Made by a program: the position numbers and the translations under genes | Source of the DNA: Tetrahymena thermophila SB210 | Lineage: Eukaryota; Ciliophora; Oligohymenophorea; Hymenostomatida; Tetrahymenidae | Assembly: GCF_000189635.1 (NCBI RefSeq) | Contig: NW_002476463.1 | Location: 62,001 to 126,000 of the forward strand | Length of the DNA stretch: 64,000 nt | Direction of reading: 5' to 3' | Notes under the pieces: generated by a model | What the model saw: the letters and a program-made list of their open reading frames with translations, nothing else | Told to the model about the DNA's origin: nothing | Databases searched by the model: none | Shown here: piece by piece, positions 19,012 to 32,701 of the stretch | How positions within the stretch are numbered: position 1 is the stretch's first letter | How the letters are laid out: each line of letters begins with the position of its first letter

Positions 19012-19842
19012 ATATTTAAAGCCTAATTCATCATTTTTTTGTTGATAAGATGAGATTTATTCAAGTTGAAAACAACATGTTTTATCAAAAATAAAAATAA
19101 TTATGAATGAATTAGTTATAAATAAAAAATAATCAAATAAAACAAATAAATATATTATTATCATCTTTAAATTAAATAATTATATCAAATTTATTCCCTA
19201 TAATAAAAAATATTAACAATTTATTCTTATCTTAGTCAATTTTTTACAAAAATGTAGCAATTAAATTAATAAATTTATATTAGTATCAAATGGTAGACAA
19301 TTTATTAGTTAGTTTTTCTTATTGTAATGAAAATTAAAATATTGTTATTTTTTATACATACTTAATTTTTATAAAAAACTAATTTAAATTTTGCAAAGAA
19401 ATATTATAATATTAAAGTTTTTACTTTTTATATTTTAATTTTTTAAATGAAAACATAAAATGGTTTTTAAATATATCTATTAATACAATTTGTATTGGAT
19501 AACATTGAATTCAATTAATAATAAAGTGTTTAATAATGACTTAAAAAAATGATAAGATAGAGCATTTAAATATTAAAAATCTTATAGAATTTGAGGATAT
19601 CTCTCCCTCCTAATTCAATTTTTGAAATAAATTCAAATTATCAAAAATTGAAAATAAATTAAAGAATCTATCTATCTATTTATTATTTATATCAATAATT
19701 TAAAGAATTAAGTAATAATCAATTTTACAAAATTTCAGATATTTATTTCTAAGATAAACTTCATAGTTTTTAGAAAATTTTAAAAAGTCAAACAGATCTT
19801 TAAAAGGAATTAATATATTAGGTCACTAATAACAGTATTAAA
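19012..19842. other. intergenic, likely promoter of the RRM gene
   Basis: This 830-bp AT-rich spacer lies between two plus-strand genes. No coding frame or repeat was recognised. Confidence 0.55.
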
Positions 19843-20763
19843 ATGAGCTATAGAGTTTATATAGGTAAGACAGCAGGAGTAAGCAAAGAAGATCTTTTTG
19901 CTCTTTGTCAAACATTCGGCAGCATTAGTGATTTTATGATGAAGGAAACTTATGCCTTTGTAGAATACTCAAATGAAATTGATGCAAAAAAAGCTGTTAT
20001 TGAGCTTGATGGACGTTTTATTAATGGTCACAGAATTATGGCAGAACCAGCTAAGATAAAGGGAGTAAGTGAAAATGTTGATTTAGCACAACATCCTAGA
20101 ATATATGTTGGTAGACTTTAAAAAAGTGTCCAAAGAGAAGACCTTTTAAACTTATTTGGACGTTATGGCGAAATTACAGATATTATGAGAAAAGAAGACT
20201 ATGCTTTTATAGAATTTGGAGATAGTTCTTTTGCTGCTTAAGCTGTTAAAGAAATGAATGGATATAATCTCAATGGAACAAAGATAGTGGTAGAAGGAGC
20301 TAGACCCAAAGATGAAGCAAAAGAAATCAAAACAACTCGTTTGTACATTGGTAAAATAGGTCCTTAAATTAAGAAGCAAGATCTTGTAATTACATTTGGA
20401 GGTTATGGTGAATTAGTTGATATATTAATGAAAGATGATTATGCTTTTGTTGAATTTACAACTACTCATGCTGCAGCCAAAGCTTTAGCTTCAATGAATG
20501 GAGCTCGTTTAGCTGGTACCAAAATTGTAGTTGAAGAAGCCAGACCAAAAGAAGGAGCTTCAGTTTAAACACAGTAAAGCACAACAAACAAAAGAGTACC
20601 ATTAAATCCTCTTTTATAATAGTAACAATTATTTTCTAGCACAGATGCTTCAACAGGATAAGCAGCTAAATTTAACATGAGGGGAAGAAGATTATCTCCA
20701 AGAAGATCAATTTCTCGTTCCCGCTCTAGATCTTATGAAAAGAAAAATAGTAAAAAGATTTGA
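19843..20763 (+). CDS. three-RRM SR-like RNA-binding protein
   Basis: Intronless gene, 306 residues. Three RNA-recognition motifs lie at about residues 4-72, 86-157 and 166-236. Each opens with an RNP2-like strand (RVYIGK, RIYVGRL, RLYIGKI) and carries an RNP1-like strand (YAFVEY, YAFIEF, YAFVEF). A Gln-rich linker leads to a short C-terminal RS-type tail (SPRRSISRSRSRS), as in SR splicing factors. Each RRM has the compact loop typical of SR-protein RRM1. A role in pre-mRNA splicing or mRNA handling is inferred from this architecture. Three tandem RRMs are unusual for classical SR proteins, which have one or two. Codon use is more biased and GC is higher than in its neighbours, suggesting good expression. 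Confidence 0.92.
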
Positions 20764-24082: not shown

Positions 24083-26013
24083 TTGTATTAATTTGAGTTA
24101 TTAGTTTATTTACTTCTTTTATACTGCTATTTTTTATAATTTAATTTTTACTTATTAATTTGTTTAGTTTTTTTTTATTTTACTGGGTAAAGAATGCATA
24201 ACATTTAAATTTGTATGGCTATAAATACTCAAACATTGAAGTTTTATTAAAAAAGATGTGTTATCATGTTTAAAAATTGCAAATTATTGTTGCTAAAAGG
24301 GCTATTTTACATTAATTGAATAATTCAATTTAATCCTATTTGTTGCCTTAAAGGTTGTCTTTCTTTCTACCTTCACTATTTTACACATCTTATAAAAAAA
24401 CTCAATCAAAATTTTGATCAAAAAGAATATTTTACACCAATAAACAAAAAATTTAATCAAAGCATTTTAATAAATTCAATTTTCATAATTCAAGCAATTC
24501 ATAACCTTTACTAAAAAAACATTGTTTCTTTCAAACAAAATAAATTAACAAATTAAAACCATATTTAAAAAACAGAACTCAATATTTATCATCTAGTTTT
24601 TAGATATACTTATTTTTAATTCAAGAGAATATTTTTTTGTGCTTAAAAATAAATATAAATATGTTCTTACTTATCTTTAAACTTAGTGTAAACTCTTGCT
24701 TGGCAATTAAAAATTTTTTTACTTTTACAAAAGTCTGTAAATTTAAATTTTGTTATTTTATTTTCTAAATCATTGACTAACTCTGAACAAATTTACAGTT
24801 TTTATAATTTCAAAAGTAAATTTTAAAAATGTTAAATTTATAGTTAGAATTTGACTTTTATTTAATTTTCATAAAATAGCCGATGGATGCTGATAATAAT
24901 GAATTTTAAATCTCTAAAGGAAGTGTAAATTATTGTATTGTTTTTCCATTTAGAAATAAATTATAAAAAAATAAAGTTTAGTATTTAAAAATTTAATCTT
25001 GCATTTTTATTTAATTTATATGATTTTCATTGGCATATTAAAAATATGCGGCAAAATGGATTTAGATACAATGATTAATAAATTTTTTGTTGAGACACGC
25101 TCATTCCTAGTTTTCCTACTCTAAGCTTTCTAAAAATTATTTTAGTTTTTTATAATTTTTTAAAGTGTTAAAAAAATAATATTTTTTAATTACAATTAAA
25201 ATTATTTATTCATTTTTTATAACCAAAAGTAAAAATATTTCTCTCAAAAATTTAGTCTTTATGCTTTTAAAATTTTCATGAGCTTTTTTAATTATTACTT
25301 GCTTTTGATTAATTTTAAGTAAATTTGTACTACTTAGCTCTTGTTTGTTTCATTTTTTTTTTTTGAGTTTACTCTGTTGTATCTTTTTTTAAACAAATTA
25401 TTTGACATGCCATAATTAAAAAATAATTTTCATTTAAATTACAATTAAATGCAAAAGATACTTTTTCTTACCCCTCCTTTCTCCTCATAACTTTGAAATT
25501 TTTAATTATTTTATCGTTTATTGGAAACAGGAGGGTTTGTTTAAGAGGAATTAATTATTTTAAGTAAATTTAATTTTTTAATTTTTTTATTTTTACAAAT
25601 AATTTATTAACTTACAAAAATATAAATGATATTAAAAATAAAAAAACAATAATAAAATCTAATATACTTTAGGTTAAAAAAAACTTTTTCAAAATATTAA
25701 AAAATAAAAAAACCTTTAATATTCAATTATTAAAACATTTAATATTTATTCGTCCTTTTTTCGTTATTTGCTTATCACTAGGAATATTTTTAAAAGACAA
25801 CTAATCTTTTTGATTTAAGACACTTGCTTTTTAATTTGAATTGTTATGATTAATTCATTGAGCTAAAATTTTATAATAAATTAGTGTAAATTTTAAATAA
25901 ATATCAAATATAATAAACTTTAAATTAAAAATTATTTCTTAAATTAATAAATAAATAAATAAAATAAAATTAGAGGAATAAAAAAGATAAAAAATTAATC
26001 AAATAAATTCAAA
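24083..26013. other. intergenic, very AT-rich
   Basis: About 1.9 kb lies upstream of the transmembrane gene and below the LRR exon array. A 46-codon frame (24883-25023, starting MDADNNEF) was seen but has no other support. No terminal exon for the LRR array could be found here. Confidence 0.5.
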
Positions 26014-26084
26014 GAGCTTTATTGTTTTAAATTAGTTTTAATAATTAAAAATATCACAATCCAAAACAAATAAACTGTTTTTAC

Positions 26085-28141
26085 CGAAGATTAAGTGTCA
26101 AATTTGAGAGATTAATGCAATTTGCTAAACCAGAACCTAAGCCTGATGCACCTTCATCACTAATTTTACTGTAAATTTTTAAATATTTAAGAAAAAATAT
26201 ATCATTAAATAGTATATTAGAAGGAAAAAATGTAGAAAGAATATCAATAATAAGATAAATTAATTAATAATAAAAGCAAAAGTTGAAAATAAAATGATGA
26301 GTTAAATAAACAAAGAAAGAACAAAAAAGAACTTTATTGTTTTAAATTAGTTTTAATAATTAAAAATATCACAATCCAAAACAAATAAACTGTTTTTACC
26401 CAAGATCAAGTGTCAAATTTGAGAGATTAATGCAATTTGCTAAACCAGAACCTAAGCCTGATGCATCTTCATCACTAATTTTACTGTAAATTTTTAAATA
26501 TTGAAGAAAAAATATATCATTAAATAGTTAATTAGAAGGAAAAAATGAAGAAAGAATATGAAATAATAAGATAGATTAATTAATAATAAAAGCAAAAGTT
26601 GAAAATAAAATGATGAGTTAAATAAACAAAGAAAGAACAAAAAAAAATGCAAGCACAATAAAAAGAAAAAGAAAAAAGAACTTTATTGTTTTAAATTAGT
26701 TTTTATAATTTAAAATATCACAATCCAAAACAAATAAACTGTTTTTACTAAAGGTTATAAATTCATAAAAATAGTGGTTATGATGAACCGTAAACTAAGC
26801 AAAGATGAGTAGTTTGCATAGATTAATCTATGACAAATACTATCTATATGCTTTAAAATTGTTTCATCCAAGTTTTAGCTAAAAAAAGTTGCTGAAATCA
26901 ACTTTTTCTAACCGGTTCCTCTTTTGTTTTCATAGAAAAATCAAAAATAATATATTTAAAGACCTAATAAATACAAAAAAAACAAACAATAATACATATA
27001 AATATAATAAATAAATAAATAATTTTTAATTTAAGTTGTATTCTGAGTGCATTTATATGTGCGAGTATTTCTATTCTATTCTATCACCAATTTTATTCTC
27101 ACTTTTTAAATATTGAAGAAAAAATATATAATTAAATAGTTAATTAGAAGGAAAAAATGAAGAAAGAATATGAAATAATAAGATAGATTAATTAATAATA
27201 AAAGCAAAAGTTGAAAATAAATTGATGAGTTAAATAAACAAAAAAAAAAAAAAAAGCAAGCACAATAAAAAGAAAAAGAAAAAAGAGCTTTATTGTTTTA
27301 AATTAGTTTTTATAATTTAAAATATCACAATCCAAAACAAATAAACTGTTTTTACTAAAGGTTAAGTGTCAAATTTGAGAGATTAATGCAGTTTGCTAAA
27401 CCAGAACCTAAGCCTGATGCACCTTCATCACCAATTTCATTCCCACTTTTTAAATATTGAAGAAAAAATATATAATTAAATATTTAATTAGAAGGAAAAA
27501 ATGAAGAAAGAATAAAAAATAATAAGATAAATTAATTAATAATAAAAGCAAAAGTTGAAAATAAAATGATGAGTTAAATAAACAAAGAAAGAACAAAAAA
27601 AAACAAACACAATAAAAAGAAAAAGAAAAATGAGTTTTATTGTTTTAAATTAGTTTTTATAATTTAAAATATCACAATCCAAAACAAATAAACTGTTTTT
27701 ACTAAAGGTTAAGTGTCAAATTTGAGAGATTAATGCAATTTGCTAAACCAGAACCTAAGCCTGATGTACTTTCATCACCAATTTTATTCTTACTTTTTAA
27801 ATATTCAAGAAAAAATATATCTTTAAATAGTTAATTAGAAGGAAAAAATGAAGAAAGAATATGAAATAATAAGATAGATTAATTAATAATAAAAGCCAAA
27901 GTTGAAAATAAAATGATGAGTTAAATAAACAAATAAAGAACAAAAAAAAAAGCAAGCACAATAAAAAGAAAAAGAAAAAAGAGTTTTATTGTTTTAAATT
28001 AGTTTTTATAATTAAAAATATCACAATCCAAAACAAATAAACTGTTTTTACCGAAGATCAAGTGTCAAATTTGAGAGATTAATGCAATTTGCTAAACCAG
28101 AACCTAAGCCTGATGCACCTTCATCACCAATTTTATTCTCA
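26085..28141 (-). pseudogene. series of five orphan LRR exons, one repeat per exon
   Basis: In transcription order the candidate exons are 28141-28052, 27792-27703 and 27445-27356 (90 nt each), then 26483-26400 and 26168-26085 (84 nt each). Each is bounded by AG upstream and GTAAAAAC downstream. Each begins one nucleotide into its reading frame and ends with two nucleotides of the next codon, so any number can be joined without a frame change. Each encodes one 28-30-residue repeat of the type GDEGASGLGSGLANCINLSN followed by LTLNL, the same LRR class as the neighbouring gene 29748-31310. No start codon exon above 28141 and no stop exon below 26085 could be found. The set is therefore called a relic, but it could be internal exons of a gene whose ends I missed. 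Confidence 0.6.
26750..27095. other. non-homologous insert replacing the LRR exon of array unit 3
   Basis: Within the third unit the sequence departs just after the CTGTTTTTACTAAAGG word and rejoins at CACCAATTTTATTCTCAC. The roughly 345 bp between are unrelated to the other units. They include a small inverted repeat (AAAAAGTTG...CAACTTTTT, about 26885-26910) and short TTCTA repeats at the right junction. No coding frame was seen. It may be a replacement, an insertion with deletion, or an older unit. Confidence 0.6.
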
Positions 28142-28335
28142 CTTTTTAAATATTGAAGAAAAAATATATAATTAAATAGTTAATTAGAAGGAAAAAATGA
28201 AGAAAGAATATGAAATAATAAGATAAATTAATTAATAATAAAAGCAAAAGTTGAAAATAAAATGATGAGTTAAATAAACAAAGAAAGAACAAAAAAAAGC
28301 AAGCACAATAAAAAGAAAAAGAAAAAGCGAGTTTT

Positions 28336-29747
28336 TTATACAGGTTTTTACATTTTATAAAACTAAAATTTTAAATATTTTTTCCGAATTTTTTTTCATC
28401 CCGAGAATTTCATATTTTGAGCAGAGTTTTTGTAAATTTTATTAATTTTTTTGAATCCACAGACTATTTATTTAAAATTTAAATAAATAATCATTATTTT
28501 TTTTTATTACTATTTATTTAAAATTCTATTTTAAATTAAAAAGAAAATTAATTTTTCTTATTAATAAAATTTTTTGCTTGATCATTATTTATCTGTGATT
28601 TGCGATTTTTAAAATAGCAAATTGCTAATATAAAACTTGATTTACTAAAGTATTTTTTAAAATGTTTAATAAGATCATATTTAAAATTACTAAATACTAA
28701 TTATTATAACAATTATCAAATTTATTCCAACAGTTAATTCTCTAGTGATTTATAATAATTAACTAATAATAAGAGCAAATTAATAATTCGTATTTTTTAC
28801 AAATTTAAATCAAATATGTCCCCTATTTTTAAAAATCTATAATATTTTTCAAATGATCTATCCATTAGTTCCACAAAGAATAAACTAAATATTTTGTATT
28901 AAATTTTAACTAATAAAATAAATAATTTTGGCATTTAAAAATGTTTATATGATAGTATAGAATAGAGTTTGCATAATGAAATACACTGGTAAAGAAATTT
29001 TTGAATTTAATGAAAATGATAATAAAAAAATAAGTTTCACTATTAAGTTAAGCAAATTTTCATAATAAAATATTAATTTAAATTATAAACTTAGGATGTT
29101 TATTCTTTAGGAGTAGTCTTTAAAGAATTCATTTTTGGTAGGAACTTTAAATATTAAACTGAAATTAGGAATTGAAGTAAAAGAAATAATAAATAATGTT
29201 TTAAGCAAAAGGCCTAAAACACAAAACAAAGAGGTTAAATTATCAGATATTTTTTTATTAGAAAAAAATCATTCTATGCTATATTTCTAATAAAAAATTC
29301 CTTTAGCATTATAAAAAACTTTATTAATAAGATAAAAACATATGAAACTAGTAATTTGTCAGATTATTTTTTGACTAAAATTAGATAACAGTTAAGATAT
29401 ACCATAGTGTTTTATTTATTTATTTGTTGCTCAGCTCTTGTTTAACTAAAATATAGTCAGAAGTTTCATTGTTTTTTTAAAAATATACTTTAGAAAAACA
29501 TAGAAGCTAGGTTTTCAATAATAAATAAATAAATATACTTCACTAAAACATAAATATGTTCCTTAAAAAATTTAATACTCTATTTTCGATGCCAATATCC
29601 ATCGATATATTAACCAATAAAAGGGATTTTATTTTTTAAATTTTATAAAGCTTAGCTTAAACCCAAAAAAAAATTGTAATTGAATTCATTTTTATTTTTT
29701 ATTAATTTAATTATTTTTAAAAAAAATTTAACAAACGAATGAATAAA
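28336..29747. other. intergenic region between LRR array and LRR gene
   Basis: AT-rich DNA. The only notable frame is the plus-strand one at 28976-29374, listed separately. Nothing resembling an upstream exon for the minus-strand LRR array was found. Confidence 0.5.
28976..29374 (+). CDS. possible small hypothetical gene
   Basis: An ATG-initiated ciliate-code frame of 132 residues (MKYTGKEIFEFNEN...) ends at TGA 29372-29374. Composition is Lys/Leu/Ile-rich and somewhat protein-like. With TGA as the only stop, a frame this long can arise by chance in such AT-rich DNA. No domain was recognised. It lies opposite in strand to both LRR features. Confidence 0.28.
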
Positions 29748-31310: not shown

Positions 31311-32701
31311 TTTTACTCTTTATATTATTAATTATTTAAATTAATTTAATAATTATTATTATTTAATATGAGTAAATTTATTTTTAAAGTAACTTTTTTC
31401 GATGAAATTTTATTTGTTAAAAAAAATATGGGATAATTAATTATTAAAGTTAATTTATGATAATCTGTCTGTTTGTCTAGGTGTTCTTCTAATTAAATTA
31501 AGTTTTTTTTTATAATTCTTGTGTTAGAAATTATTCAATAAGCATATCCAATAATTATAATGATAGAAATGATTTGTAGATCATATTAATTTTTAATAGT
31601 AATAATTCTTGTGTCAGAATTGAAAATAGAAATTAATTTTTACTTGTATAAATTCTTATGTAAGAAATGATTTGTAGATCATATTAATTTTTAATAGTAA
31701 TAATTCTTGTGTCAGAATTGAAAATAGAAATTAATTTTTACTTGTATAAATTCTTATGTAAGAAATGATTTGAAAATATTAATTTATGAGTAAGAATTCT
31801 TGTGTTAGAAATAGCTTAGTAAGTTAAAAGTTATTTCTTTCGATAATTAAGACAGCAAGTACTCTATTAAATCTATTTTATATTAAAGATTACAAAAATC
31901 TTAATCAAAGCTTACAAATATAACTTCTAAAATTTAATTATTTATATATCTTCAACCTGCAATTTTTATGATATTTACCAGGGAAATACCTAATATTTGA
32001 TTTTTGATGAATGTTAGTTATTTTACTTATGAATAAGTAAAAAATGTTTATTATTTTTGTATTTTGCAAGTAATACCTCCCTGATTTATAACTTCTGTTG
32101 ATTGGCAATAATAGTTACTTATTTACTAAAGCATTACAGTTAATCAAAAATGATTAAGTATTAATTAGAGTTTTATGTATGGGTAATCATAAAACAAAAA
32201 TTTAAGTAGCACATCTCCCTAATTTTAAGTATCTTAAGATGAGCAATAATAAATACTTTAATATTAAATTTTTTAAGAAAAAAAAGTTAAAAGATTTTAG
32301 CAAATATTTGCTTTTAATTTTATATAAGCTAAAATAATATTTTAATATGATTTTTTCTAAGAAATAAAAACTCCAAATTAAATTATTTATTTATTTATTA
32401 AAACACAAAAATTTATTTTTATAAAACTAAACTTTTTTTTTGATGATAATGACTTTCTAAAATTGTATTTAAAAAATTTTGATTTTAAATAAAAAAACAA
32501 TAATCATTCATAATGAAAGATGCTTTTATTGATGAAATTTGATAATTTGCGTTTTAAAATATCTTTAGTACCATTAAAAAAAGAGTTAAATTTTTTTTTA
32601 ATTTAATTATTATCAGAATAAGAATATTAATTTTTAGTAGAAAAAAGCTTTAAAAAGAAATAGTTTAGGATAATTTTATTTATTTAGAACATTAATTAGA
32701 A
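31311..32701. other. divergent intergenic spacer with palindrome/98-bp repeat cluster
   Basis: The spacer lies between the LRR gene start (minus) and the SNARE start (plus). It holds the repeat cluster at 31500-31815. At about 32075-32110 and 32210-32245 there are two loosely similar stretches (CTCCCT...GCAATAATA). No coding frame was seen. Confidence 0.6.
31565..31775. repeat. 98-bp tandem duplication plus partial third copy
   Basis: 31565-31662 is repeated essentially exactly at 31663-31760, and a third copy decays after about 15 bp. Each unit contains two forms of an imperfect palindrome: ATTCTTGTGTCAGAAT and TTCTTATGTAAGAA. Related forms (TTCTTGTGTTAGAA) occur just outside, near 31517 and 31797, giving six sites in about 300 bp. 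Confidence 0.9.

Follow-up and report, generated by a model that had tools for sequence, protein, structure and literature searches.

Tetrahymena carries thousands of LRR genes with 90-bp exons, as the text of Xiong et al. (2019; PMC6564038) describes. In the T. thermophila group III genes of that text, the repeat unit of 347 bp consists of a 90-bp exon and a 257-bp intron, the introns are in phase 2, and the sequence logos centre Leu codons on exon nt 36, 48, 66, 75, 81 and 87. The same text links group III LRR genes to the non-LTR retrotransposon REP (Tt.REP), whose element bodies are excluded from the macronucleus and whose 54-bp tail is present there in 169 copies, inside LRR introns of functional genes. 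Ka/Ks values are given as mostly purifying for these LRR genes overall.

The array treated here lies in a 64-kb stretch of T. thermophila DNA (the window) and is a member of this published family; the phenomenon it represents is a known one. Telomerase RT exons of the genome (101 Mb, 445 contigs) match PDB chain 6d6v_A, from T. thermophila, with no mismatch other than read-through intron sequence at their edges, and to judge from its size the genome is probably macronuclear. Judged by the published description, the window array and the group III genes share 90-bp exons, phase-2 introns, a 347-bp unit, near-identical tandem units and identical places of the Leu codons. Group III genes are defined by at least three tandem LRR exons of exactly 90 bp; the array has three in succession, then a broken exon, then two exons of 84 nt. 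The broken exon and the two 84-nt exons set the window copy apart from the group III genes as described, as does the lack of a leader module; of a complete gene the 3' end is present, and the leader module is missing from the window. In itself the array is ordinary for Tetrahymena, a damaged member of a published family. It is very probably the 3' part of a young group III gene, a 5'-truncated relic whose exon 4 was hit by a retrotransposon, in a family whose predicted binding face would have been diversified. What goes beyond print, as far as was found, is the presence of tails at one exon position and of variable codons amid near-identical introns and exon core. Follow-up is best directed at these two points, the family's codon pattern and the insertion specific to exons.

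Architecture of the array and its relatives

The minus strand at 26014-28335 consists of six repeat units, five with intact LRR exons and one with a broken exon (Table 1). Each of the five intact exons has AG before it and GTAAAA after it, begins with 1 nt and ends with 2 nt of a split codon (phase-2 introns). The original prediction, made from the sequence alone, had proposed just such 84- or 90-nt exons of a single phase in five of six units, and these are now located, on the minus strand. It had also proposed that any subset of the exons could be spliced in frame, and this is borne out: with the terminal exon attached, 31/31 combinations of the five exons remain open as far as the terminal TGA. 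With exon 4 included, the frame meets a stop, and the length of that exon is not divisible by 3. To judge from the reading frames, isoforms differing in LRR number are mechanically possible.

Table 1. Positions of the array's exons and of neighbouring features in the window
Feature	Position	Strand	Remark
LRR exon 1, 90 nt	28052..28141	(-)	
LRR exon 2, 90 nt	27703..27792	(-)	
LRR exon 3, 90 nt	27356..27445	(-)	
Broken LRR exon 4, 353 nt	26749..27101	(-)	
LRR exon 5, 84 nt	26400..26483	(-)	Acceptor TTTACAG, 6 nt further downstream
LRR exon 6, 84 nt	26085..26168	(-)	Same shifted acceptor as exon 5
Terminal coding exon, 88 nt including TGA	25775..25862	(-)	Encodes SMNQSQQFKLKSKCLKSKRLVVFQKYSQ and the stop; 3' flank common to other arrays
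Upstream sequence common to L009, L011 and L015	28330..28410	(-)	Homology ends above
Intact intronless LRR gene, 520 aa	29748..31310	(-)	Same strand as array
Tandem repeat, 98 bp, 2.6 copies, 93% matches	31565..31812		Lies directly upstream of the 520-aa gene
Protein with RNA recognition motifs (RRM_1, E 6e-39)	19540..20763	(+)	

Tandem Repeats Finder (TRF) gives a period of 347 bp with 94% matches over 27083-28335. The introns measure 259, 257, 872 (exon 4 skipped), 231 and 222 bp, the first two being those of the 90-nt part, and the predicted range of 230-600 bp was thus roughly right. The two 84-nt exons carry a change of a 7-nt block that has produced TTTACAG and moved the acceptor, at the cost of two residues; these include an Asn nearly invariant in the family (176/184 exons). 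Only these two exons of 84 nt occur among 203 accepted exon-like segments, and they sit in adjacent units that share the change.

How much of the wider picture stands? That the array is young is agreed. Introns as conserved as the exons, another part of the prediction, are found if most exon sites are considered but not if the concave-face codons are, as 12 of the 20 pairwise differences among the three 90-nt exons in the window map to 8 of 90 sites. That such arrays grow by duplicating a unit with a phase-symmetric LRR exon is correct as well, but had already been described in 2019 (PMC6564038, in its available text). An 'unusually clean snapshot' of such growth the array is not, with the leader module absent, one of six exons interrupted by a retroelement and two acceptors displaced.

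Other arrays of this kind, whose existence had been anticipated, are abundant in the genome. A genome search with one unit gave 329 matches (the window's own included), which excludes a chance similarity; those listed are 91-96% identical, the self-match aside. Twenty loci were chosen among the best places of this search and therefore lean towards young units, and the assembly of such arrays is imperfect, 8/20 fetched stretches reaching a contig end. Among young exons from the 20 loci and the window, taken at a score of at least 80 with no open frame required, 184/191 have the form AG-90 nt-GT, and only one of the 184 contains an in-frame TGA. Another count, 203/212, applies only to segments that have an open frame and whose length is a multiple of 3. 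Locus L025 (3493-3591) has an LRR exon of 99 nt in the usual phase, the first part of which is not LRR-like (FWKVFQIGDEG...); its acceptor was perhaps made from an insertion remnant.

These arrays would have grown through unequal recombination that multiplied units of exon plus intron. With 1 nt at the start and 2 nt at the end of each exon, units could be gained, lost or skipped with no change of frame, as the subsets of the window exons illustrate mechanically. A bacterial reading of the window was tried and rejected: under table 11, with start codons, a single ORF reaches 150 aa, against 165 stop-to-stop frames under table 6, counts that are not like for like.

The broken exon and its retroelement tail

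Exon 4 retains exon nt 1-19 (27101-27083), followed by an antisense tail, by other sequence and finally by 8-9 nt from the exon's 3' end. Copies of the tail are scattered over the genome, with 40 scored matches; its 32-base core has 122 genome copies at up to 3 mismatches, and a reversed control has 0. Where do these tails lie? The tally of sites rests on 100 listed of the 122 core copies, and 97 of these 100 were placed, at least 94 after exon nt 19 and 3 elsewhere. A pattern that combines ten exon bases with the tail fits 54 of the 100 (56 places in all), although with up to 3 mismatches allowed over 48 bases its exon part is short evidence. Of the remaining 46 listed tails 40 were fetched, and 37 of the 40 come after nt 19 of an exon whose acceptor can be recognised. 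Three further tails (L035, L045, L048) are at the same exon site; the other 3 of the 40 (L054, L064, L076) are in no recognisable LRR exon, and two of these follow GGAGAT, which is near the usual GGTGAT.

The short repeat at the tail end varies among copies (GAATA, TGAAT, GGAAAT, GATGAT and GGAAT among others). At the junctions of L069, L070, L075, L079 and L083 it reads GGAAAT, TGAAT, GAT, GAATG and GGAAT, respectively, against GAATA in most, and the exon position is constant. On the far side, the exon resumes with AAATTGGTGAT or a close form in five loci (L009, L010, L024, L094, L095), which looks like a target duplication of some 11-12 bp.

The tail of exon 4 is probably a remnant of REP, an element known here only by its description in PMC6564038. 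Both appear to be short conserved 3' tails of similar length that are macronuclear and lie beside LRR units, and copy numbers are in the range of a hundred or more, 169 for the 54-bp REP tail in that text and 122 for the 32-base core. PMC6564038, in the text available, puts REP tails in introns; the tails here resolve to the exon, after nt 19, and a location within LRR introns does not fit at least 94 of them among the 100 matches listed. We think that the intron-placed REP tails of that text and the exon-site tails are the same tails. A hit exon would lose its donor half, be skipped and later be annotated as intron. Such skipping would be open to it because the exon is phase symmetric.

For exon 4 of the window, a retrotransposon family, most likely REP, would have inserted at the observed site, its tails antisense after nt 19, and splicing would be expected to bypass the broken exon with the frame kept. 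Site-specific non-LTR elements in multicopy genes are represented by R1/R2 in rDNA and SLACS/CRE in spliced-leader genes. Like them, the LRR-exon tails occupy a single fixed position in a repeated gene unit; unlike them, they have as their target a protein-coding exon, whose symmetric phase would permit skipping. The exon-site preference of the tails suggests a benefit of phase symmetry, as hit exons can be skipped.

Variable codons amid near-identical units

Diversity per site across the 184 exons is sharply uneven. It is highest in codon 1 (nt 2-4; pi 0.66, 0.61, 0.71), in codon 28 (0.67, 0.27, 0.59) and in the part of the split codon formed by the two 3' bases of the exon (0.75, 0.54). Codons 3, 6, 7, 15 and 26 are intermediate, and most other sites have 0 to 0.2; nt 82, which adjoins codon 28, has 0.022. 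Column diversity in 152 introns has a mean of 0.073 and a median of 0.039. The exons contain L-T-L-D-L-R-E-N-K-I, which we take to match the LRR consensus LxLxLxxNxI. Codons 26 and 28, the split codon and codons 1 and 3 are predicted to be on the concave face, since they correspond to x positions in this consensus. The family thus appears to encode one LRR per exon, with concave-face codons that differ among otherwise near-identical units.

For 27 unit pairs with an intron distance of <0.005, the difference per site is 0.0020 in introns and 0.0034 over 66 core sites of the exon, but 0.52 over the 8 most variable sites. Of these pairs, 21 stem from a single 7-unit cluster (L012 and L014), in which the exon core has 0 differences in 21 pairs, and six two-unit clusters account for the remaining 6. 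In the 7-unit cluster the 5' alleles AGC and TTT are each found together with AAC.TT and with AAA.CG as 3' alleles, and this four-gamete pattern suggests that recombination has taken place within the exon. Linkage among variable codons is weak yet present, and is strongest between codon 28 and the split codon (z 8.0).

Since the initial choice of variable sites was made on these same data, the test was repeated with five other loci on other contigs. In this set, 36/40 young exons are canonical, pi at variable sites is 0.16-0.76, and the core and the introns each have a mean of 0.048. The six most variable sites all belong to the original eight. Five pairs with an intron distance of <0.01 differ at 0.35 per variable site against 0.0047 in introns, and one of the five is wholly identical.

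How did this variation arise? Diversifying selection together with recombination is likelier, in our assessment, than targeted diversification. A targeted process, by mutation or short-tract conversion directed at the exon and possibly started by the LRR-exon-specific retroelement, as opposed to selection alone, is unlikely, though it would accommodate several observations. One is the gap between variable sites and both introns and core in the 27 pairs. Third positions also vary (GAT 29 and GAC 37 at codon 28), and this high third-position diversity, followed by the drop at nt 82, is hard for a simple selection model. The variable block of codons 6-7, moreover, straddles the insertion point of the retroelement. 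Against a targeted process, all four combinations of 5' and 3' alleles in one cluster imply recombination among existing alleles, most of the close pairs come from that single cluster, and the identical pair in the second set has no differences at all. Diversifying selection with concerted evolution could yield such a pattern, and MHC genes are a case where the two act together. Recombination and selection, then, may diversify what would be a binding surface.

LRR repeats that vary at concave-face positions are familiar from lamprey VLRs and plant NBS-LRRs. The Tetrahymena units resemble these in the predicted location of the variation, and differ from them in that it is found among germline tandem exons, with near-identical introns and with one codon split by an intron. 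We know of no receptor function for Tetrahymena LRR arrays. If, between units with near-identical introns, predicted concave codons differ at about half of their sites, a unicellular eukaryote may possess a recognition repertoire that has diversified rapidly, an idea open to test in T. thermophila as a laboratory organism. A further step would be to view the young arrays as a repertoire-generating system, in which a germline process reshuffles or mutates the predicted concave codons, the split codon among them, and leaves the rest of exon and intron near-identical, perhaps through cleavage of LRR exons by the retroelement specific to them and repair from sister units, the phase-symmetric exons absorbing insertions as skipped repeats; this is speculative, and we consider it rather unlikely. 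The text of PMC6564038, where searched, does not mention variable concave codons, and the literature covered, which left most subscription papers outside, holds nothing on variable codons or an exon target beyond that source.

The ends of the array and its coding potential

The 3' end of the array is conserved. The terminal exon motif is present in 14 loci, the window included, and is open and phase-compatible in 14/14; its acceptor is the usual TTTAG in 11/14, and another AG is needed in 3/14. At the 5' end, most arrays with a visible start share an upstream leader module of ~1 kb. The start lies within the fetched DNA in 14/21 sequences (20 loci and the window), and the module is present in 11 of these 14 (L009, L010, L014, L015, L016, L018, L020, L021, L023, L025, L027). 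As read from the alignment, its putative layout is a 39-nt first exon starting ATGATATAATAG, a 57-bp intron and a 50-nt second exon ending in phase 2.

Among the 14 loci with a visible array start, the module was not found in the window, L011 and L024, and for the window this applies to the whole 64 kb. The three loci may represent other 5' ends for such arrays; L011 has 14 exons with no leader module. A complete small gene was considered for the window array and rejected, as the leader module was not found there. Because the module is absent and the shared upstream sequence stops near 28410, the array is most likely a 5'-truncated copy. Lacking the leader module, it would most likely give no canonical protein and serve as a recombination partner for other arrays.

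Could the array be an intact gene all the same, whose new 5' end has escaped recognition (either a novel first exon or a splice to the intronless LRR gene upstream), and which would make isoforms of different LRR number? In favour are the open frames of all five exons and of the terminal exon, the in-frame outcome for every subset, the intact LRR gene upstream in the same orientation, and L011, which likewise is without the module yet has 14 exons. We nevertheless regard this as improbable, given that the leader module was not found in the 64-kb window, that the upstream LRR gene has its own TGA, and that there is no in-frame ATG ahead of the terminal exon in the translated spliced exons of the window. 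An inert satellite that descends from an LRR gene but codes for nothing, which the original prediction had named as its refuting case, is likewise quite unlikely as an account of the array: one of six exons is broken, two acceptors are displaced and the leader module is missing, but five exons, their splice ends and the conserved terminal exon are open and phase-matched, and the differences among the 90-nt exons are at the variable codons (12/20), not random. The truncated group III copy is thus the reading that we retain.

The neighbouring intronless LRR gene, which ends in its own TGA, lies upstream, with 1.6 kb between its stop and exon 1 of the array. Pfam matched one of ten ORFs in the window, the RRM protein, whose PDB matches did not point to a species. 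The repeats of the intronless LRR gene are 30 aa long, with a phase equal to that of the 90-nt exons.
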